IMG/VR virus record: IMGVR_UViG_3300045974_000247
Span: 1-58,848 of that record
Strand: one strand, 5' to 3'
Length of the DNA: 58,848 bases
Origin: a virus
Position 1 is the stretch's first letter, and the number at the start of each line of letters is the position of its first letter. The position numbers and the translations under genes are program-made. The notes beneath the pieces are model-generated. The model had not been told where the DNA came from and searched no databases. It saw only the letters and a list, made by a program, of their open reading frames with translations. Below, one piece after another: positions 10,833 to 58,164 of this stretch.

Positions 10833-11693
10833 CTACTCCTCCTTGGGGGGTTGGTACTTGGAGCGTGGGCGACCCTCCCCGAGTCGCACGCGCTCATACT
10901 TGTCCAGCTCACACAGGCAGAACTGAATGTCGTGGGCAGTGAGCCGCCCTCCTCCTGGGAATGTCTCGAGCCACCGTGGCTGAATCTTCTCCAGCAGCGC
11001 GCGGATGAGGACCACGCCCTCGTCTGTACGGATGCCCTTCGTGAGCGGGGCCTTGCGCAGCCGGTTGAGTCCGCGCCTTGCCCCCGGGCCGGTGGGCGTC
11101 CAAGTCTCTGCGTCCTTCACCGGGTGGCGCCGCCAGAGCAAGTAGTCCTGGAGCACCTCCTTCGCCATGAACCCAGCGCCACCGAACCCGTGGACCTCCT
11201 GCATGACGTTGAAGCCAGCCTCCCACGTGTTGGTTGCCTCGATGGTGCTGACGATGTCCTCGGCACGGTCCCAGAGCGGCGCCAGGTACTCGTCCCCGAC
11301 CACCTTGTACTTGCGGACGCCTGCGTCACCGCCCCTGATCATGTACGCGCCGGTCCAGAACGTCTTGCCGGCGCGCTCGCACTCCTCCTCCGCGCGCTTG
11401 ATGCGAGCGGTCGAGTGAGCGCCCAACCAGCCGAGCGCGTCAGACGCCGCCACCGTGCCCGTGAAGCGTCGGAGCGCGCAGTTGTAGAGGGCCACGTGGA
11501 GCGGGGCCTCGCTGTACTTCTGATACACCTTGAGGAAGGCCTGCGTGGTCCGGTCGTGGACGCGCTGGACGTTGGTGAACTTGTACGTCTGGAGAATCTT
11601 GTCCTTGGTCCACGGCGCTGCCTGACCTCCGAGCTTGCGGAGCCGGATGTGCTCGCGCTCCTCGATGTACTTCCACAGTGGCTTGGCGTTCAC
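10833..11693 (-). CDS. Thymine-hypermodification type DNA-glycosylase-fold protein (aGPT-Pplase / HMUDK-helical-like)
   Basis: 286 residues. N-terminal signature EREHIRLRK..G..APWT (12-29) then YKFTNVQRVHDRTTQ (37-51), a helix-hairpin-helix segment VHGFGGAGFMAKEV (167-180) as in DNA glycosylases, and C-terminal LCELDKYERV.LGEGRPR. This is the pattern of the families linked to alpha-glutamyl/putrescinyl thymine synthesis, which transfer a group to activated 5-hydroxymethyluracil in DNA. No P-loop is present, so any kinase step must be elsewhere. Starts the 11693-to-883 gene block, 17 bp from a palindrome. Family assignment is from remembered patterns; substrate unknown. Confidence 0.65.
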   Translation of the reverse strand: MNAKPLWKYIEEREHIRLRKLGGQAAPWTKDKILQTYKFTNVQRVHDRTTQAFLKVYQKYSEAPLHVALYNCALRRFTGTVAASDALGWLGAHSTARIKRAEEECERAGKTFWTGAYMIRGGDAGVRKYKVVGDEYLAPLWDRAEDIVSTIEATNTWEAGFNVMQEVHGFGGAGFMAKEVLQDYLLWRRHPVKDAETWTPTGPGARRGLNRLRKAPLTKGIRTDEGVVLIRALLEKIQPRWLETFPGGGRLTAHDIQFCLCELDKYERVRLGEGRPRSKYQPPKEE

Positions 11694-50553: not shown

Positions 50554-50595
50554 GGGCCCGACCCCCTGCGCCGTCAAGCGCAGGGGGTCGGGCCC
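50554..50595. terminator. 18-bp perfect hairpin between convergent operons
   Basis: Arms GGGCCCGACCCCCTGCGC (50554-50571) and the complement at 50578-50595, loop CGTCAA. Stops both the plus (ending 50059) and minus (ending 50621) operons; no strong U-tract on either side. Confidence 0.85.
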
Positions 50596-50620: not shown

Positions 50621-50890
50621 TCAGCCGACGCTGATGATGCCGCGCTTCGTGTCGCCCAGGAGGTAGCCCGTGTCGCCGCCAGCCTCCACGAACTCGCCCA
50701 CGGTCATGCCCGACTTGTACAGCGAGCGGGTCTTGCTGGCGGCGCTGTCGGGCCGCTTCTCGACCTTGGCCGCGACAGCCGCCTTGTCGAGCACCTTGAT
50801 CTTCTGACCGAGCCGAGCAGCGCGGGCACCCGGCTCCTCCTTCGCCACGACCTTCTTCTCCACCTTCGTGTTCTTCTTCGCAGCAGCCAT
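50621..50890 (-). CDS. KIKVL-family lysine-rich protein, stand-alone form
   Basis: 89 residues. N-terminal Lys/Ala-rich part (MAAAKKNTKVEKKVVAKEE), then KIKVLDKAAVAAKVEKRPDS and the C-terminal domain RSLYKSGMTVGEFVEAGGDTGYLLGDTKRGIISV. The same C-terminal domain closes the proteins at 51758 and 57355. AAGGAG precedes ATG by 6 bases, and an 18-bp terminator lies upstream, so it has its own promoter. The basic tail suggests nucleic acid binding. Confidence 0.75.
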   Translation of the reverse strand: MAAAKKNTKVEKKVVAKEEPGARAARLGQKIKVLDKAAVAAKVEKRPDSAASKTRSLYKSGMTVGEFVEAGGDTGYLLGDTKRGIISVG

Positions 50891-50975: not shown

Positions 50976-51016
50976 GGGCCCGCTGGCTCGCCTAGTCAAG
51001 GCGAGCCAGCGGGCCC
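50976..51016 (-). terminator. 18-bp hairpin terminator
   Basis: Arms 50976-50993 and 50999-51016 (GGGCCCGCTGGCTCGCCT and complement), loop AGTCA. In the minus direction TTCTTGTTGGGGG follows. Ends transcripts of the 51022-51691 genes before the KIKVL gene. Confidence 0.8.
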
Positions 51017-51706: not shown

Positions 51707-51742
51707 GCTCGGAGCCGGGCACTACGCCACCCGGCTCCGAGC
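51707..51742 (-). terminator. 13-bp hairpin after the zincin-KIKVL gene
   Basis: GCTCGGAGCCGGG (51707-51719) with its complement at 51730-51742, 10-base loop, 16 bp beyond the stop codon of the gene at 51758. No U-run, GC-rich like the other terminators here. Confidence 0.7.
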
Positions 51743-51757: not shown

Positions 51758-52219
51758 CTACTTGACGGCGACCAGGGCGCGCACCGTTGCGTCCTTGCGG
51801 ATGTACGTCCAGTCGCACCCGTGGGTCTGGCACTTCTCCTGGAACTGCTCGACCGTCATGCCGTCCTTGTAGAAGGTCCGGCACTCATACGCCTTGGAGG
51901 ACTTGTTGCCGGTGTCCTCCAGGAACTTCTTCAGCGCCGGCAGCACCTTGATCTTGGCGCCCTCCGGGAACCCGGTCCCCTTCGGAGCCTTGGGGGCCTT
52001 CTTCTCCTTCGGGGCCGCAGCCGGGGCAGGGGTCTTCTTGGCGACCTCGGCCTTGGCCGCCTTCGGGTCGAGGGTCTTGGCGGTGGCGAGCGCGGGAGCC
52101 TCGGGGGCCTTCGCCTCCCTGGGCACGCTCGCGCGGTCCACCTTCGCCACGCCCAGCTCCGGCATGGGGAGCTTCTTGGACTGCTTCTCGGTCTTCTTGT
52201 CGTCGGTCTTCTTGGCCAT
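51758..52219 (-). CDS. Possible internal product of the zincin-KIKVL gene
   Basis: 153 residues beginning MAKKTDDKKTEKQSKK. AAGGAG stands 6 bases before the ATG, inside codons for LKEKS of the long frame. The same architecture appears in the stand-alone 50621-50890 gene, which suggests this was once, or still is, an independent gene. Whether the short form is made is untested. Confidence 0.5.
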   Translation of the reverse strand: MAKKTDDKKTEKQSKKLPMPELGVAKVDRASVPREAKAPEAPALATAKTLDPKAAKAEVAKKTPAPAAAPKEKKAPKAPKGTGFPEGAKIKVLPALKKFLEDTGNKSSKAYECRTFYKDGMTVEQFQEKCQTHGCDWTYIRKDATVRALVAVK

Positions 52220-52810
52220 GGACTTCTCCTTCAGGTAGTTGTGGACCAGCTCAGCACGGACCTGCGCCGGGAGAAACCGGAAGCCAGCGCCGTGCTCCTT
52301 CTCCAACTCGCGTAGTGCGTCGATCAACTCCACGTGCTCGATGCGAGCCGCCAGGCTCGCCACGACCTCCTTCTGCGGGTCATCCGCCGGGTGCTTGTGG
52401 TTCGCGCGCATCAGGTCGAACAGCTTCTCTGCGAACTGCCAGGCCAGCGACACGCCGCTGGTCCGCTGCCCCCGGAGCGTCAGCTTCCGCACCGGGTTGT
52501 CGCTTGAGTTGTACTTGCCCTCCGTCATGAAGTCCAGGTGGTGGTAGAACTCGTGGAACACCGTCTTGAGGTGCGCGCGCGAGTGGATGGAGATGCTCCT
52601 GCTCTTCGGGTGGTACCAGCCGTTGGCCCCCTCGTCGGGGGTCCGCTCCGTAACCTGGGGAGGCTTGATCTTGTAGACCCGGGCGAGCACGGCCAGAACG
52701 ACCCGTGCTCGCTTGCGGTCTACCTTGAACCAGTAGCCTCGGTGTATGGGGAACAGCGCTCTCAACTCTCGGGGACACCGCACGTCCCACGTCTGGGTAG
52801 CAGCGAGCAT
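51758..52810 (-). CDS. Zincin metallopeptidase-like domain fused to KIKVL domain
   Basis: 350 residues. N-terminal domain with HEFYH (86-90, HExxH zinc site) in TVFHEFYHHLDF, likely an M-type metallopeptidase or SprT/ImmA-like zincin. Then, without a stop codon, MAKKTDDKK at 198, a Lys/Ala/Pro-rich linker, and the C-terminal KIKVLPALKKF...RTFYKDGMTVEQFQEKCQTHGCDWTYIRKDAT domain shared with two other genes. An AAGGAG and ATG at the junction allow a second, shorter product. N-terminal start at 52810 is best; upstream residues to 52912 are not native. Confidence 0.75.
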   Translation of the reverse strand: MLAATQTWDVRCPRELRALFPIHRGYWFKVDRKRARVVLAVLARVYKIKPPQVTERTPDEGANGWYHPKSRSISIHSRAHLKTVFHEFYHHLDFMTEGKYNSSDNPVRKLTLRGQRTSGVSLAWQFAEKLFDLMRANHKHPADDPQKEVVASLAARIEHVELIDALRELEKEHGAGFRFLPAQVRAELVHNYLKEKSMAKKTDDKKTEKQSKKLPMPELGVAKVDRASVPREAKAPEAPALATAKTLDPKAAKAEVAKKTPAPAAAPKEKKAPKAPKGTGFPEGAKIKVLPALKKFLEDTGNKSSKAYECRTFYKDGMTVEQFQEKCQTHGCDWTYIRKDATVRALVAVK

Positions 52811-52814
52811 CGGG

Positions 52815-53342
52815 TCACCGAGCCGGGATGAGGTTGAAGTGCCGAGCGGCTGCGAGCTGCTCCACGCCGTCACCGTGGTGGTCGCGCCCCTCGGCCTCGC
52901 ACACCTCCTCATAGTCCTCGTCCTGCGCCAAGCGGTCAGCCGTCACGGACCAGCGGACCTCGCCGCACCCGTTGATGCTGACGAGGCAGAACCACCGGCC
53001 ATCGCGCTGGAAGTAGTAGTCAGCGCACTTGGGGTGGGTGAGCCAGGGGCTGTCGGCGCGCACCTCCGCGAGCACGTAGCTGTTCTTGCTGCGCGACCAG
53101 TAGATGTCGTTGGTCGTGTTCATGTCGCGGAGCGTCACGTCCACCCGGGCTCCGTGCTGCGTGTCCTTCCAGCCGAAGATGGCCGGGGGCCCCGCGATGA
53201 ACCGCTCGGGGATGCCCTTGGCGCACTCCTCGCAGAGCCGCGTGCCGTAGATGGTCTTGACCTTCCCCCTCGGGGAGGGGCACCCGTCAGGGTGCACGGT
53301 CCGGCAGCGGAGAGCTTCGCATTCGCAGGTACGGGTGGTCAT
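52815..53342 (-). CDS. Cys-rich hypothetical protein
   Basis: 175 residues from ATG 53342 (ATGA overlap with the upstream gene). N-terminal CECEALRCRTVHPDGC and CEECAKGIPERF form a possible double zinc site. The central part has beta strands (YWSRSKNSYVLAEVRA) and a further Cys. Start MTTRT resembles the MTTKT starts of neighbouring genes. Function unknown. Confidence 0.6.
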   Translation of the reverse strand: MTTRTCECEALRCRTVHPDGCPSPRGKVKTIYGTRLCEECAKGIPERFIAGPPAIFGWKDTQHGARVDVTLRDMNTTNDIYWSRSKNSYVLAEVRADSPWLTHPKCADYYFQRDGRWFCLVSINGCGEVRWSVTADRLAQDEDYEEVCEAEGRDHHGDGVEQLAAARHFNLIPAR

Positions 53343-53596
53343 GGCTTCCTCTTCGCAGGCGTCCAGCCCGCGCGCTTGAGTAGGTTGAGAACATCGGTGG
53401 GCTTGGTCGGCGGGCTGTACCCCTCCACGAGGGGCTTCCCATCGAGGCTGATCCAGTACTGCGGGCGGGAGGACGAGCGCCCCCCACCCAGGTAGGTCCA
53501 GGAGTACCGCAGGCTCACCTGGACGCGGTTGTCTTCGGAGCGCCACTCCTGGAAGCGGAGCGGCTTGAGGGTCCGGTCGAGGAGCTTGACGCCCAT
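53339..53596 (-). CDS. Hypothetical protein
   Basis: 85 residues. Beta-rich (RVQVSLRYSWTYLGG, PQYWISLDGKPLVEGY) with a C-terminal helix (KPTDVLNLLKRAGW). No known family. ATGA overlap. Confidence 0.55.
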   Translation of the reverse strand: MGVKLLDRTLKPLRFQEWRSEDNRVQVSLRYSWTYLGGGRSSSRPQYWISLDGKPLVEGYSPPTKPTDVLNLLKRAGWTPAKRKP

Positions 53597-53598
53597 GG

Positions 53599-54108
53599 CT
53601 AGTCTCCAATGCCGTGGTACTCTTCCGTCACCACCAGGCCCTTGCCGGCCCCCAGGTCGATGACGTACACCTGGTTGAGCTTCATCCCCTGGCCCCACGT
53701 GGACTTCGGGAACCAGCGCTGGTCGCGCCAGTGCCACACCTCGTGGAACCGCTGGCTGATCGCCTCCCCCATCAGCGGGGTCAGCGCCGCGCCCTGGTAC
53801 GTCAGGTCGTGGGCGTACCAGCAGCGGTCATCGTAGGACATCTGCTTCTCGTGGACGAAGGTTCGCGTGGCGAGGTGGACGACGCCAGCCGACTGGCGGG
53901 TGACCCGGAGCGTGATGCGGGGCTCCAAGCGGAGCTCACCAGCGTCGGTGGTGTACACGTACAGGTTGAGCTCCTCCTTGAAGGTGCCGCCCCGGATGAC
54001 CTCGGGGAAGGCCAGCGCCTCCACCCGGTTGCGGCGCACGTATGCGACCACGGTGTCGCCGGGGAGGAGCTGGGAGCTGGACACGTCGGTCTGGTAGGTC
54101 GGCTGCAT
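53599..54108 (-). CDS. Hypothetical beta-rich protein
   Basis: 169 residues from ATG 54108, behind leader TCAACCTACCCTCTGGAGACCAACC. Beta strands throughout (GDTVVAYVRRNRVEALAF, EELNLYVYTTDAGELRLEP, RITLRVTRQSAGVVHLATRTF). No family recognised. Preceded by structured element copy 1. Confidence 0.55.
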   Translation of the reverse strand: MQPTYQTDVSSSQLLPGDTVVAYVRRNRVEALAFPEVIRGGTFKEELNLYVYTTDAGELRLEPRITLRVTRQSAGVVHLATRTFVHEKQMSYDDRCWYAHDLTYQGAALTPLMGEAISQRFHEVWHWRDQRWFPKSTWGQGMKLNQVYVIDLGAGKGLVVTEEYHGIGD

Positions 54109-54125
54109 GGTTGGTCTCCAGAGGG

Positions 54126-54198
54126 TAGGTTGAGCATCGGGTCGAGGGACCCAGCGAGAGGAGCGAGCAGCGCTCGCCCCCCTCAAGTGCTCCTCGAC
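54126..54198 (-). ncRNA. Repeated structured RNA element, copy 1
   Basis: On the minus strand GTCGAGG...CCTCGAC closes a conserved frame (AGCACTTGAG and CTCGCTGGGTC) around a variable hairpin, here GCGAGC-AGC-GCTCGC. Outer stem, flanks and position are the same in three copies while the core hairpin changes sequence but stays paired, the mark of a structured RNA or processing signal. Confidence 0.65.
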
Positions 54199-54235
54199 AG
54201 AGCCACGGAGCCTACCGTGGCTGGCGGTGGTGCGA

Positions 54236-54427
54236 CTAGTCAGCCTTCCTGTTGTGCGGCCAACGGAGGGAGTGCGTCCATCCTCCGGGGAGCGGCTCAG
54301 CCCAGCGCTCGTTGTCGAGCACCCCGGCGCAGCGCTGCCCGGGGGAAGCGTCGCACGTGGGGCAGCGGAAGACGAGGGAGCGCGCGACCTGGGCCGCGTG
54401 CCACTCGGACATCGGGAGCGACTTCAT
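54236..54427 (-). CDS. Zinc-finger protein
   Basis: 63 residues from ATG 54427. CPTCDASPGQRCAG with later His/Arg (THSLRWPHNRK) is the C-P-x-C-x-A-x-x-G-x-x-C...H...R pattern common in phage and actinobacterial zinc fingers. Probably DNA or RNA binding. ATGA overlap. Confidence 0.7.
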   Translation of the reverse strand: MKSLPMSEWHAAQVARSLVFRCPTCDASPGQRCAGVLDNERWAEPLPGGWTHSLRWPHNRKAD

Positions 54428-54705
54428 GGTGCCCTCCTTCGGGCGGGGAGTCGAGCGGTTTGGGAGCAGCGGGAGCCGTGAGCGGTCTGGACGTAGACGA
54501 TGGCGGTGAGCGGCCACTCACGAGGGTTGTACGGCATGACCTCCAGCGGGACGATGTCGAAGCCCAGCTTGGCGGCGAACGCTTCGATGCGGTCCGGGTC
54601 TGCGTGCTGCGCGAGCGGGTGGCGCGTGGTCCCTTCGTACATCGGGGCCACGTCCTCCTTCTCGCTGTCCTCTGCGCGGGTGATGCGGAAGTAGAGCTTG
54701 GCCAT
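54424..54705 (-). CDS. Hypothetical protein
   Basis: 93 residues. MAKLYFRITRAEDSE begins with a beta strand, then helix DPDRIEAFAAKLGFDIV, basic tail. Overlaps the next gene (ATGA) and the previous gene's stop by 1 base. No family recognised. Confidence 0.55.
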   Translation of the reverse strand: MAKLYFRITRAEDSEKEDVAPMYEGTTRHPLAQHADPDRIEAFAAKLGFDIVPLEVMPYNPREWPLTAIVYVQTAHGSRCSQTARLPARRRAP

Positions 54706-55085
54706 CACACGCTCCAGTTGAAGATGACTTCGTTCGTGCGCGGCCACATCGTCGTCATCATCGCGGAGGGCCCGCCGTCATCCGCGCCCATCACCATCTC
54801 CTCCACGTGGGCCCGGGTCCAGAAGGAGGGGCTGAGGGAGGAGTCGTTGAGCATGTCGTTGTCGAGCGCGGCGCGCAGCTCCCGGCGCAGCTCCAGCTGG
54901 TCGTGCTTCGGGACCGCGCCGTGCTCAGCCACGTAGCAGCCGACCAGGTTGTCCAGGACGACTGCGAGGAGGTCAGGCGTGGCCGTGTAGCCGCAGCCGT
55001 GGCACTTCGTTCCCAGCTCCAGGAGGAGGGACCGGCGGGAGCCGTTCATGTCGGGCGGGCAGCGGGGGCAGTAGTGGGTGGTCAT
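54705..55085 (-). CDS. Zinc-ribbon hypothetical protein
   Basis: 126 residues from ATG 55085. MTTHYCPRCPPD and CHGCGYTATPD form a Cys4 ribbon, then a helical region (QLELRRELRAALDNDM). Looks like a small adaptor or inhibitor. Function unknown. Confidence 0.6.
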   Translation of the reverse strand: MTTHYCPRCPPDMNGSRRSLLLELGTKCHGCGYTATPDLLAVVLDNLVGCYVAEHGAVPKHDQLELRRELRAALDNDMLNDSSLSPSFWTRAHVEEMVMGADDGGPSAMMTTMWPRTNEVIFNWSV

Positions 55086-55087
55086 GG

Positions 55088-55372
55088 TCACTTCTCCTCG
55101 CAGGAGCAGAGCCCCTGGCACTTCGGGCAGTCGCACTCCCCGTAGATGGCGGCGGTGCAGGGTCGGTTGGTTGCCGCCCACTCGACGCAGGCGGGGCACT
55201 TCGGGGTCGCCAGGTGCCAGAGCTTCTCGCGCCACTCGATGAGTCCCGCCTTCTCCATGTCGCGGAGGGAGGCGCGGCAGTTCAGGAGCAGCTGGTCAGC
55301 GGTGGCGGGGCCGGTCTGGAGTCGGGCCAGGACGAGCGCCTGGCCGGTGAGCTTCCTGTTCTTGGTCGTCAT
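55088..55372 (-). CDS. Winged-helix-like protein with Cys-rich tail
   Basis: 94 residues from ATG 55372. VLARLQTGPATADQLLLNCRASLRDMEKAGLIEWREKLWHL is the layout of a winged-helix DNA-binding domain, followed by a multi-Cys tail (CPACVEW, CTAA, CDCPKCQGLCSC). Likely binds DNA with a metal-stabilised tail; possible regulator of the right arm. Confidence 0.6.
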   Translation of the reverse strand: MTTKNRKLTGQALVLARLQTGPATADQLLLNCRASLRDMEKAGLIEWREKLWHLATPKCPACVEWAATNRPCTAAIYGECDCPKCQGLCSCEEK

Positions 55373-55374
55373 GG

Positions 55375-55587
55375 CTAGCCTCGGGCTGCGTAGGTGAGGA
55401 GGGAGTTGGCGAGGTGGAGGGCCTGCTTCTTCGTGAGCCGGATAGACTGGGTGGCGAAGCCGCGCCGCCACTTGCCGTCGGAGCCCAGCACGGAGGCGCG
55501 GTTGCCGACGATGAGCTCCAGCTTCGGCTCTCCGTCACGGCAGGTCACTGCGAAGGGGCGCTTGGTCTTGCGGACGAGGGGGATCAT
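55375..55587 (-). CDS. Hypothetical protein
   Basis: 70 residues. Basic start (VRKTKRPFAVTCRDGEPKLELIVG) then a helix (KKQALHLANSLLTY). No family recognised. Leader CACCCTACCTGGAGACACCA precedes ATG. Confidence 0.55.
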   Translation of the reverse strand: MIPLVRKTKRPFAVTCRDGEPKLELIVGNRASVLGSDGKWRRGFATQSIRLTKKQALHLANSLLTYAARG

Positions 55588-55617
55588 TGGTGTCTCCAGG
55601 TAGGGTGAGCGGTTGGA

Positions 55618-55854
55618 CTAGCTGCGGCGGGTGATGACGACAACGGCGTGGCGGGCGAAGTGGACGTGGACGCGGGGCAGGTCGGAGCCCTCGGCGATGA
55701 GCTTGGGCTCGCAGGTGAACGTGAAGGACTCGCCAACCTCCAGCTCGTCCAGCTGCGCTTCGCGGCGCACGGAGCAGGCCAGCGCTGCGAGGCTGAGAGC
55801 GGTCTTGAGCTTGCCGGTCCCGGAGTTGTAGCTGTCGAAGGTCTTGGTCGTCAT
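55618..55854 (-). CDS. Hypothetical protein
   Basis: 78 residues from ATG 55854. MTTKTFDSYNSG, helical middle (LKTALSLAALACSVRREAQL) and a beta-rich end (GESFTFTCEPK; VHVHFARHAVVVITRR). The N-terminus repeats the MTTKT motif of other right-arm genes. Preceded by structured element copy 2. Confidence 0.55.
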   Translation of the reverse strand: MTTKTFDSYNSGTGKLKTALSLAALACSVRREAQLDELEVGESFTFTCEPKLIAEGSDLPRVHVHFARHAVVVITRRS

Positions 55855-55872
55855 GGCGGTGTCTCCGAAGGG

Positions 55873-55949
55873 TAGGGTGAACGGGTCGAGGGACCCAGCG
55901 AGCAAGAGGAGCGGCCGCAGCCGGTCCTCCCGCTCAAGTGCTCCTCGAC
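55873..55949 (-). ncRNA. Repeated structured RNA element, copy 2
   Basis: Outer stem 55885-55891 with 55943-55949. Same conserved flanks as copies 1 and 3. The core is AGGAGCGGC-CGCA-GCCGGTCCT, one mismatch in a 9-bp stem. Its end overlaps the stop codon of the upstream gene. Confidence 0.65.
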
Positions 55950-56188
55950 TAGCTGCGGGTGCTCCAGTGCAGCAGGGAGCCGGAGGGGAACCCCTCGCCC
56001 GGGACAGCGGCGACAGGCTCGGTGAACCAGGCGTTGAGGACGTCAGCGGAGGCCTGGTTGTCGAACACGTCCAGGATGACGTGGCCGACGTGCGCCAGGA
56101 CGTTCCGGACCCGCGCCCCTTCGATGCCGCGCTTCTGGGTCGCTGCGATAGCCTGGTCGGCGTTGCCCTTCACGATCAGCGTGTACAT
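55949..56188 (-). CDS. Hypothetical protein
   Basis: 79 residues from ATG 56188. Ferredoxin-like beta-alpha-beta layout: MYTLIVKGNADQAIAATQKRG, VGHVILDVFDNQASADVLNAWF. The sequence resembles small ACT- or muconolactone-like folds only in outline. No function recognised. Confidence 0.55.
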   Translation of the reverse strand: MYTLIVKGNADQAIAATQKRGIEGARVRNVLAHVGHVILDVFDNQASADVLNAWFTEPVAAVPGEGFPSGSLLHWSTRS

Positions 56189-56190
56189 GG

Positions 56191-56373
56191 CTAGTTCCTC
56201 TCCAGTCGGTCGATGTCGTTGATCATCATGATCGCGTTCTGCGCCGCGTGGCTGTTCAGGCACCAGTCGCGCACCGCCTTCTTCTGGTCCCGGTCCTCGG
56301 CCTCTCGCAGCGCCTTGTTGGCCATCGCGAGTGCAGCGAGCAGCGCCTTCATGTTCTTGTTCGTGAGCTTCAT
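56191..56373 (-). CDS. Hypothetical helical protein
   Basis: 60 residues from ATG 56373, with AAGGAG close before and the leader CACCCTACC. All-helical and charged (KNMKALLAALAMANKALREAEDRDQKK). No family recognised. Confidence 0.5.
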   Translation of the reverse strand: MKLTNKNMKALLAALAMANKALREAEDRDQKKAVRDWCLNSHAAQNAIMMINDIDRLERN

Positions 56374-56399
56374 GGCAGCTCCTTCAGGTAGGGTGAGCT

Positions 56400-56858
56400 T
56401 CAGTACTCCACGCACTGCGTCATGACCTTGCGCCAGCCCTTGACCATCTTGGCTCCCTTGGCGAAGGAGGTCAGCCCCCCGGCCCGCCGGATGAGGACGT
56501 GGAGCCGGTTGCGGCAGAACACGGAGGAGAGCTTGCCGGCGTCGTTCGGCATCCCGGTGACGATGGTCAGCCAGAGGTCCCCGTGCTCCGTCATCTTGGT
56601 CTCCTGCTCCTTGACCTCGTAGCGGTAGGAGCCGTCAGACTGCGGGGCGCGCATCCGGTTGACGATGCGCTCGACCATCGCGGTCTGGGCAGGGGTCTGC
56701 TTCGTGCCGCGCTTCAGGACCTTTCGAGCGGCCCGCTCACCGCAGTTGGGGCACTCATACGTCGGGACCATCTTCGCCAGCTCCTCGCTCCACGTGGTCG
56801 TCTTCTTCCAGAAGTCCACGCCGCATCCGCAGTTCACTCCGCGCTTGATCTCGGCCAT
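56400..56858 (-). CDS. Zinc-ribbon protein
   Basis: 152 residues from ATG 56858. CGCGVDFW, CPNCGERAARK and later Cys; second half mixed alpha/beta (YRYEVKEQETKMTEHGDLWLTIVTG, FCRNRLHVLIRRAGG). Probably nucleic acid or protein binding. Function unknown. Confidence 0.6.
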   Translation of the reverse strand: MAEIKRGVNCGCGVDFWKKTTTWSEELAKMVPTYECPNCGERAARKVLKRGTKQTPAQTAMVERIVNRMRAPQSDGSYRYEVKEQETKMTEHGDLWLTIVTGMPNDAGKLSSVFCRNRLHVLIRRAGGLTSFAKGAKMVKGWRKVMTQCVEY

Positions 56859-56860
56859 GG

Positions 56861-57052
56861 TCAGCTCCTCTTGAGGGGGGCGAGCTTGAACAGCTTCTGC
56901 GAGCACTTCAGGCACCGCCCGACCTCGGGCTGGTTGCGCGGGGTCTGAGGGCGGATGGTATGGGAGCAAGCTTCGATGCCGCAGTCCACGCAGTGGTAGA
57001 TGCGGCCGCAGCGTCCCGCACGGCACGAGCGACAGGCGATGGTCTTCTTCAT
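56861..57052 (-). CDS. Zinc-binding protein
   Basis: 63 residues from ATG 57052. CRSCRAGRCGRIYHCVDCGIEACSH and CLKCSQK make up to three metal-binding Cys pairs. Lys/Arg-rich end. Small RING/zinc-knuckle-like. Function unknown. Confidence 0.6.
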   Translation of the reverse strand: MKKTIACRSCRAGRCGRIYHCVDCGIEACSHTIRPQTPRNQPEVGRCLKCSQKLFKLAPLKRS

Positions 57053-57054
57053 GG

Positions 57055-57261
57055 TCAGCTCCTTGCGGCGTCGTTCTGGAGGCACATCGAGCAGGTCACG
57101 GAGCCGTCCTCTGCCTCGTCGCAGCAGGCGCGGCACACGGGGTCGAGGCAACGGTCGCAGGTGAGGATCATCACCTGGTTGTCGCCGCAGCGGAAGATGA
57201 CGGGAACCTTCTTCTTGTCGCAGCAGCAGCAGGTGCGGTCGGGCTCGTTCGTGGCGGCCAT
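57055..57261 (-). CDS. RING/B-box-like zinc protein
   Basis: 68 residues. CCCCDKKK, FRCGDNQVM, CDRCLDPVCRACC and CSMC give ten or more Cys in a cross-brace-like order. Unusual Cys density; could be a protein-interaction module. The sequence could also fold as two simple zinc ribbons. Confidence 0.6.
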   Translation of the reverse strand: MAATNEPDRTCCCCDKKKVPVIFRCGDNQVMILTCDRCLDPVCRACCDEAEDGSVTCSMCLQNDAARS

Positions 57262-57277
57262 GGTCGGCTCCAGTGAG

Positions 57278-57355
57278 TAGGTTGAACGTCGGGTCGAGGG
57301 ACCCAGCGAGCCCAGCGAGTCCCGAAGGGCTCGCCAGGCTCAAGTGCTCCTCGAC
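57278..57355 (-). ncRNA. Repeated structured RNA element, copy 3
   Basis: Outer stem 57293-57299 with 57349-57355, same flanks, core GCGAGTCCC-GAA-GGGCTCGC with one bulged T. Ends at the stop codon of the gene at 57355, so it begins in its 3' end and leads into the next gene. Confidence 0.65.
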
Positions 57356-57798
57356 TACTTGACGCTGATCAGGCCACGGCGGATGTCGCCGTGGAGGTAG
57401 CCCATGTCCAGCTCGGCCTTCGCCATCGCCTTCCGCCACTCGCCCACCGTCTTGGACTTGGCGTACAGGTCGAAGATGCGGCGAGCGTTCTTGCCGCGCT
57501 TCGGGTTCTCGGTCACGAGCACCTTGATCTTCGACTCGTTGGAGATGACCTCGGCGCGCTCGGCCTTGGCGGCGGGCTTCGTGGCCTTCTTGGACTCGAC
57601 CTTCTTGGCGGCGGGCTTCGTGGACTTCTTGGCGGTGGTCTTCACGGTGGTCTCCTTCTTCGTGGCGGGGGACTTCGGGGTGGTGACCTTCGCAGCCTTG
57701 GGGGCGGCCTTGCGGGCCTTGTCCTCGGCAACGGTGCGGTCGAGGGGGTGCTTCTCGGTGGCAACGGGGGCAGCGACAGCGGCGGTCTTGGTCGTCAT
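57355..57798 (-). CDS. Possible internal product of the 57355-58164 gene
   Basis: 147 residues from ATG 57798 (MTTKTAAVAAPVATEKHP). AAGGAG lies 6 bases before the ATG, inside KKESA codons of the long frame. Mirrors the junction at 52219. The short form would be a Lys-rich KIKVL protein. Confidence 0.5.
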   Translation of the reverse strand: MTTKTAAVAAPVATEKHPLDRTVAEDKARKAAPKAAKVTTPKSPATKKETTVKTTAKKSTKPAAKKVESKKATKPAAKAERAEVISNESKIKVLVTENPKRGKNARRIFDLYAKSKTVGEWRKAMAKAELDMGYLHGDIRRGLISVK

Positions 57799-58164
57799 GG
57801 CAGACTCCTTCTTGGGGTTGGACTTCTTGGACTGCTTCACAGCGGTGGACTTGTCGTTGAGGACATCGAAACCGAGCTTCGTGATCCAGCAGGTCGAGGG
57901 GTCCTGGTTGGTCCCCATGAACATCTCGTTGGTTCCCTCCTGCACCCCGACCAGCCCCTTCTTCTGCAGCGAGTTGAGCACGCCGCTGTAGGACTTGGCG
58001 GCACCGGAGAAGTCGAGGAGGGAGGAGTCGGACCAGACCGCGTTGTCGATGATCTCGGGGTTGGTCCCGTCCCCGCCGTTCAGGCAGTTGTAGAGAGAGG
58101 TGGCGATGCCGAAGAGAAGGTTGCGCTCCATCGAGGTCAGGGTCATCGAGGTCTTGGTCGTCAT
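57355..58164 (-). CDS. N-terminal helical domain fused to histone-H1-like linker and KIKVL domain
   Basis: 269 residues. First 122 residues: MTTKTSMTLTSMERNLLFGIAT..., a winged-helix-like domain with SYSGVLNSLQKKGLVGVQEG. Then MTTKTAAVAAPV at 123 without a stop, a Lys/Ala/Thr-rich region of about 90 residues like histone H1, and C-terminal KIKVLVTENPKRGKNARRIFDLYAKSKTVGEWRKAMAKAELDMGYLHGDIRRGLISVK. AAGGAG-ATG at the junction suggests a second product. The Lys-rich part predicts DNA coating or binding. Confidence 0.75.
   Translation of the reverse strand: MTTKTSMTLTSMERNLLFGIATSLYNCLNGGDGTNPEIIDNAVWSDSSLLDFSGAAKSYSGVLNSLQKKGLVGVQEGTNEMFMGTNQDPSTCWITKLGFDVLNDKSTAVKQSKKSNPKKESAMTTKTAAVAAPVATEKHPLDRTVAEDKARKAAPKAAKVTTPKSPATKKETTVKTTAKKSTKPAAKKVESKKATKPAAKAERAEVISNESKIKVLVTENPKRGKNARRIFDLYAKSKTVGEWRKAMAKAELDMGYLHGDIRRGLISVK

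Follow-up and report, generated by a model that had tools for sequence, protein, structure and literature searches.

Internal in-frame starts are usually found singly, gene by gene, through ribosome profiling, and for most of the products that they give no function is known to us. In Cas10d and Cas11d, two CRISPR subunits, the small protein comes from internal translation of the large-subunit gene. Cas11b is made by internal in-frame translation within the Cas8b gene (PMC11899642), and the internal start of RpnA is abolished by the substitutions K240R+E241D+M244L (PMC10327210).

The locus described here carries a small, previously unlisted phage domain, KIKVL, that seems to draw internal starts repeatedly behind different N-terminal domains. 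The reading considered probable is a recurrent gene-within-gene that would give the KIKVL protein in two forms, domain-tagged and free. Gene callers would record the long protein only and miss the short one, and KIKVL genes offer a route, open to sequence comparison, to the origin of two-product genes by fusion and the reasons for their persistence.

Genomic setting

The DNA analysed, called the window, is the whole length (58,848 nt) of virus record IMGVR_UViG_3300045974_000247. Genes for terminase, portal, major head, tape-measure, DNA polymerase and helicase are all present, which indicates a tailed phage. The end between 50.6 and 58.4 kb is, according to the gene map, a series of short genes, all on the minus strand, with three KIKVL copies that are related to each other by sequence and profile comparison (Table 1). 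The same block holds, at 56400-57261 (-), genes for several very short proteins that are Cys-rich and resemble zinc ribbons. Perfect inverted repeats were identified after the stand-alone KIKVL gene (50554-50595, 18 bp arms), before it (50976-51016, 18 bp) and after the zincin-KIKVL gene (51707-51742, 13 bp); bracketed by the first two, the stand-alone gene looks as if it were a transcription unit of its own. A protein of PHROG 2396, a family with no function assigned, is common to the window (10833-11693, -) and to contig G007 (L119, 14241-15218, -), where its gene is close to KIKVL fusion genes.

Table 1. KIKVL genes, domains and internal start signals in the window and in other KIKVL-bearing contigs (window coordinates or contig and gene; a slash precedes the internal Met)
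Feature	Location	Strand	Signal	Residues at joint	Remark
Stand-alone KIKVL protein, 89 aa, pI 10.0	50621..50890	-	AAGGAG-N6-ATG at 50902-50888		own start signal
KIKVL domain of stand-alone gene	50621..50806	-			profile match iE 1.5e-20
Long ORF 2, 350 aa from likely ATG	51758..52810	-			coding frame continuous
Internal SD and ATG (AAGGAGAAGTCCATG) in long ORF 2	52217..52231	-	AAGGAG-N6-ATG		ATG at 52219
KIKVL domain of long ORF 2 (divergent)	51758..51970	-			profile match iE 1.8e-11
Long ORF 1, 269 aa	57355..58164	-			single open frame; coding frame continuous
Internal SD and ATG (AAGGAGTCTGCCATG) in long ORF 1	57796..57810	-	AAGGAG-N6-ATG		ATG at 57798
KIKVL domain of long ORF 1	57355..57534	-			profile match iE 6.7e-18
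Internal SD and ATG at joint	G004, L108		AAGGAG-6	TKKESI/MAKN	
Internal SD and ATG at joint	G007, L110		AAGGAG-9	GRKETRS/MSEA	
Weak internal SD at joint	G011, L105		AAGGA-7 (AAGGAA, not AAGGAG)	NRKERA/MAEE	
Internal SD and ATG at joint	G010, L086		AAGGAG-8	EGAED/MAGKK	
Weak internal SD at joint	G002, L004		GGAG-6	HTEID/MATA	
Weak internal SD at joint	G001, L006		GGAG-9	ESKR/MTEQ	
Internal SD and ATG	G005, L103		AAGGAG-6-ATG at residue 83		before longer KIKVL protein

The KIKVL genes of the window

Long ORF 1 is composed of an N-terminal domain of unassigned kind (aa 1-122), a Lys/Ala-rich linker and the KIKVL domain, and its own start has AAGGAG 7 nt ahead of the ATG. The short product predicted from its internal start is of 147 aa with pI 10.4. 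The 18-mer GCCATGACGACCAAGACC (MTTKT) at the internal site is an exact copy of that at the ordinary gene starts 58164 and 55854 (copies at 55840, 57784 and 58150, all on the minus strand), and a copy with one mismatch stands at the start of a third gene, at 55372; by this exact repeat the 57798 site looks like the phage's own stereotyped gene start. A chance AAGGAG with GTG in place of ATG lies at about 57640. The N-terminal domain had been labelled winged-helix-like in the earlier note, a label that the single-sequence model (pLDDT 45) did not confirm, and no close relatives of this domain were identified in IMG/VR.

Long ORF 2 is composed of a domain with the HExxH (zincin) motif, a Lys/Ala/Pro-rich linker and the KIKVL domain. 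Its likely ATG, at 52810, is immediately 3' of the stop of the upstream gene, and the frame is open to 52912; the predicted short product is of 153 aa with pI 9.7. The zincin proposed for this gene stands as far as the motif goes, present as HEFYH in the translation, but the domain had no match by sequence among named peptidase families or solved structures (Pfam, PHROG, NCBIfam and PDB). Close relatives of it were absent from IMG/VR, GenBank phages and the KIKVL contigs, and the searches with the two upstream domains yielded no separate-gene ancestors for the window. The stand-alone gene, which starts with AAGGAGTGCCAGATG, had been taken for a third family member with the same start signal, and this was borne out.

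Both AAGGAG motifs were found six bases before the ATG codons at 52219 and 57798, where the earlier note had placed them, and both sites lie inside single ORFs without a stop, the upstream gene reading straight into KIKVL as had been proposed. The frame-0 codon score, taken from a profile of the phage's own codon usage, is the best one across both joints. A sequencing frameshift is unlikely at either of them because the coding frame is continuous. The coding-frame profiles hold no sign of an indel, and on their strength a frameshift or assembly artefact at the 52219 and 57798 joints was rejected. Judged by sequence alone, both fusions are genuine.

The start signal itself is over-represented in the window, AAGGAG-N6-ATG being found 7 times against 0.3 expected from shuffles. 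With spacers of N5..8 the count is 12, of which ten were classed as ordinary gene starts by the gene map and two are the internal sites. Only 3 of the 350 internal in-frame ATGs of the window have AAGGAG at 5-9 nt, and two of these are the 52219 and 57798 sites. The stability of RNA structure at the internal starts was not above that of shuffles and is uninformative.

The KIKVL domain family

Profile searches identified the pattern IKxLxxxNPKRxGSxxxxxFxLYKxGMTVGEFxxAGGxxxxLxxDxxxGxIxV in many IMG/VR phages, and KIKVL is a real domain family of about 55 aa. The AlphaFold2 model (55 residues, pLDDT 96.6) contains three helices and short strands. Its best matches to solved structures are weak (Z 4.6 to methionine aminopeptidase 204-264, Z 3.6 to PriA 115-175, Foldseek E>1) and make a winged-helix-like fold possible. 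No family of Pfam, PHROG or NCBIfam covers KIKVL, no meaningful match was obtained in PDB by sequence, tblastn identified none in GenBank phages, and none was confirmed among the few candidate stretches of GTDB genomes scanned.

In uncultured phages the domain is found alone, in tandem repeats within long proteins, or C-terminal to varied domains, with up to seven matches per contig. Stand-alone genes with their own SD include L011, L032, L045 and others. Tandem copies were identified in the long phage proteins L008, L012 and L025; L008 also presents a C-terminal ADP-ribosyltransferase domain (PF03496), and the L025 tandem genes (contig G011) adjoin scaffold and major head genes. The KIKVL fusions of contigs G007 and G004 have helicase, primase or polymerase genes nearby. 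These neighbourhoods do not settle the role of the fusions.

Recurrence and retention of internal starts

Nine KIKVL-bearing contigs, the window included, were analysed with genes called by one simple caller. They were drawn from twelve searched and chosen for fused or several KIKVL genes; the choice was only partly blind, internal starts having already been seen in some, and contigs without them (G003) were retained. The window terminase, used as query, had no match in the KIKVL contigs, which suggests that these are not close relatives of the window, although they may be fragments.

The nine contigs contain 2105 internal in-frame ATGs, 97 of them in KIKVL genes. Eight have AAGGAG at 5-9 nt and six of these eight are in KIKVL genes (hypergeometric p=2.1e-7); leaving the window out, the proportion is 4 of 5 (p=2.4e-5). 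A codon shuffle in 40-codon blocks, which preserves local Lys/Glu/Met richness, gave on average 0.42 genes with such a site against 6 of 17 observed, and six were reached in 0 of 2000 trials. The recurrence of internal starts in KIKVL genes is thus non-random. It is not universal: 10 of about 19 fused KIKVL proteins have no internal SD and ATG, three more have a weak one (AAGGA in L105, GGAG in L004 and L006), and L006 contains AAGGAG with GTG, and no ATG, in its Lys/Glu-rich linker. The residue right after the internal Met is A, S or T in 8 of 9 catalogued cases, a set assembled by hand with the weak-SD cases included, compared with 23% of internal Mets (binomial p=5e-5). This resemblance to real starts is supportive of internal initiation, as evidence that is not independent proof.

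L105, L108 and L110 (contigs G011, G004 and G007) have homologous N-terminal domains, with 34-37% identity. Their linkers differ in length and sequence before the internal Met and K-E is found just ahead of it in all three, a retention that rests on three sequences, L105 having AAGGAA. The K-E...M retention speaks for two products more strongly than any other single observation, because a fused protein needs no such motif and an internal start does.

Proposed explanation and alternatives

The earlier note had left two options, fusion by loss of stop codons or a two-product design. Fusion has clearly taken place, and two products are favoured, their translation being a prediction, because the internal start is retained more often than chance would allow by the statistics above, and in diverged homologues too. 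Ribosomes starting at the upstream ATG would make the long protein (N-terminal domain, linker and KIKVL domain), and those loading at the internal AAGGAG/ATG of the same message would make the free linker and KIKVL protein. The arrangement probably originated in the loss of stop codons that had separated adjacent genes, with the downstream start kept. With in-frame fusion, internal signal, recurrence and retention all present in the genes as read, we infer that both the long and the short products are made.

The same origin is shared by a rival account, which is unlikely though it has to be taken seriously, where stop loss joined neighbours into plain gene fusions and left the SD and ATG of the downstream gene behind as relics without a use. 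A fusion origin is plausible, an internal start is absent from many KIKVL fusions, and for the window there are no close relatives that could date its fusions. Relics should decay, however, yet the three homologues described above keep the motif while the linker changed, and two independent joints in one phage, with others elsewhere, exceed the codon-shuffle expectation. That expectation, 0.42 genes against six, also makes it quite improbable that K-E-x-x-M is a feature of the protein, such as a linker or processing site, with the SD match arising by coincidence in Lys/Glu-rich, AAG/GAG-biased coding. The linkers are Lys-rich and some hold AAGGAG-GTG coincidences, as this account would have it; against it are the A, S or T after Met and the presence at the 57798 site of the phage's own 18-nt start sequence. 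The contig is metagenomic, so that errors of assembly or sequencing could be thought to have removed the stop codons, but this is very hard to credit given a coding signal in one frame across both joints and the same layout in several independent contigs.

What a long and a free KIKVL protein would do can be proposed tentatively. KIKVL might be a nucleoprotein or co-assembly module whose free form would coat or seed a complex and whose long form would add a second activity, peptidase-like or from other N-terminal domains, with the two starts setting the ratio. The basic, Lys/Ala-rich character of all three KIKVL proteins of the window (pI 9.7-10.4) suggests nucleic-acid binding. With a pI of 5.0, however, the short forms predicted for L105 and L110 are acidic; DNA binding therefore cannot be a role common to KIKVL proteins in general, and long and short forms may instead co-assemble through KIKVL. 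In a broader and equally speculative form, KIKVL may be a shared phage 'handle', with several long proteins of one phage bearing different working domains and free copies, begun at internal starts of these same genes, that co-assemble or compete with them, the strength of each start site setting the loading per activity on the KIKVL complex.

Comparison with known systems

The closest resemblance is to RpnL/RpnS, which also have an in-frame internal start whose RBS lies in the K-E codons, a few codons ahead of M, and a short product that corresponds to the C-terminal part of the long protein; the K-E-x-x-M spacing (KE-N2-M) of the RpnA internal start is the spacing found here (PMC10327210). 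Rpn proteins are PD-(D/E)XK nuclease toxin-antitoxins of bacterial genomes, whereas KIKVL genes are phage-borne with different N-terminal domains, and in place of the N-terminal PD-(D/E)XK nuclease domain of the Rpn family (COG5464) the window proteins have no match to any nuclease family in Pfam, PHROG or NCBIfam. The toxin/antitoxin role belongs to Rpn, and the KIKVL fusions are described here from their sequences. Rpn has in addition an internal promoter (PMC10327210), whereas a scan here, covering sigma-70 types only, found none.

In Cas8b/Cas11b and Cas10d/Cas11d the C-terminal part of a large-subunit gene is also made as a small protein; these CRISPR subunits belong to a single gene family, whereas KIKVL is found behind several N-terminal domains that are apparently unrelated. 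Histone H1-like bacterial proteins (NF038053, Pfam HC2) share the Lys/Ala/Pro-rich tails. The L006 tail matches NF038053 with E=1.9e-6 and 28.3 bits, under the curated cut-off of 80, while the window proteins are unmatched and acidic short forms occur among the KIKVL proteins. The predicted structure of Gp18 of the Alphaproteobacteria phage PhiJL001 contains the KIKVL fold (TM 0.90, 30% identity), this being an uncharacterised protein of 151 aa. The KIKVL fusions are outside the Rpn and Cas protein families and match them in layout alone. The gene-within-gene layout is already known; new here are the KIKVL domain, the phage setting and the repeated pairing with different N-terminal domains.
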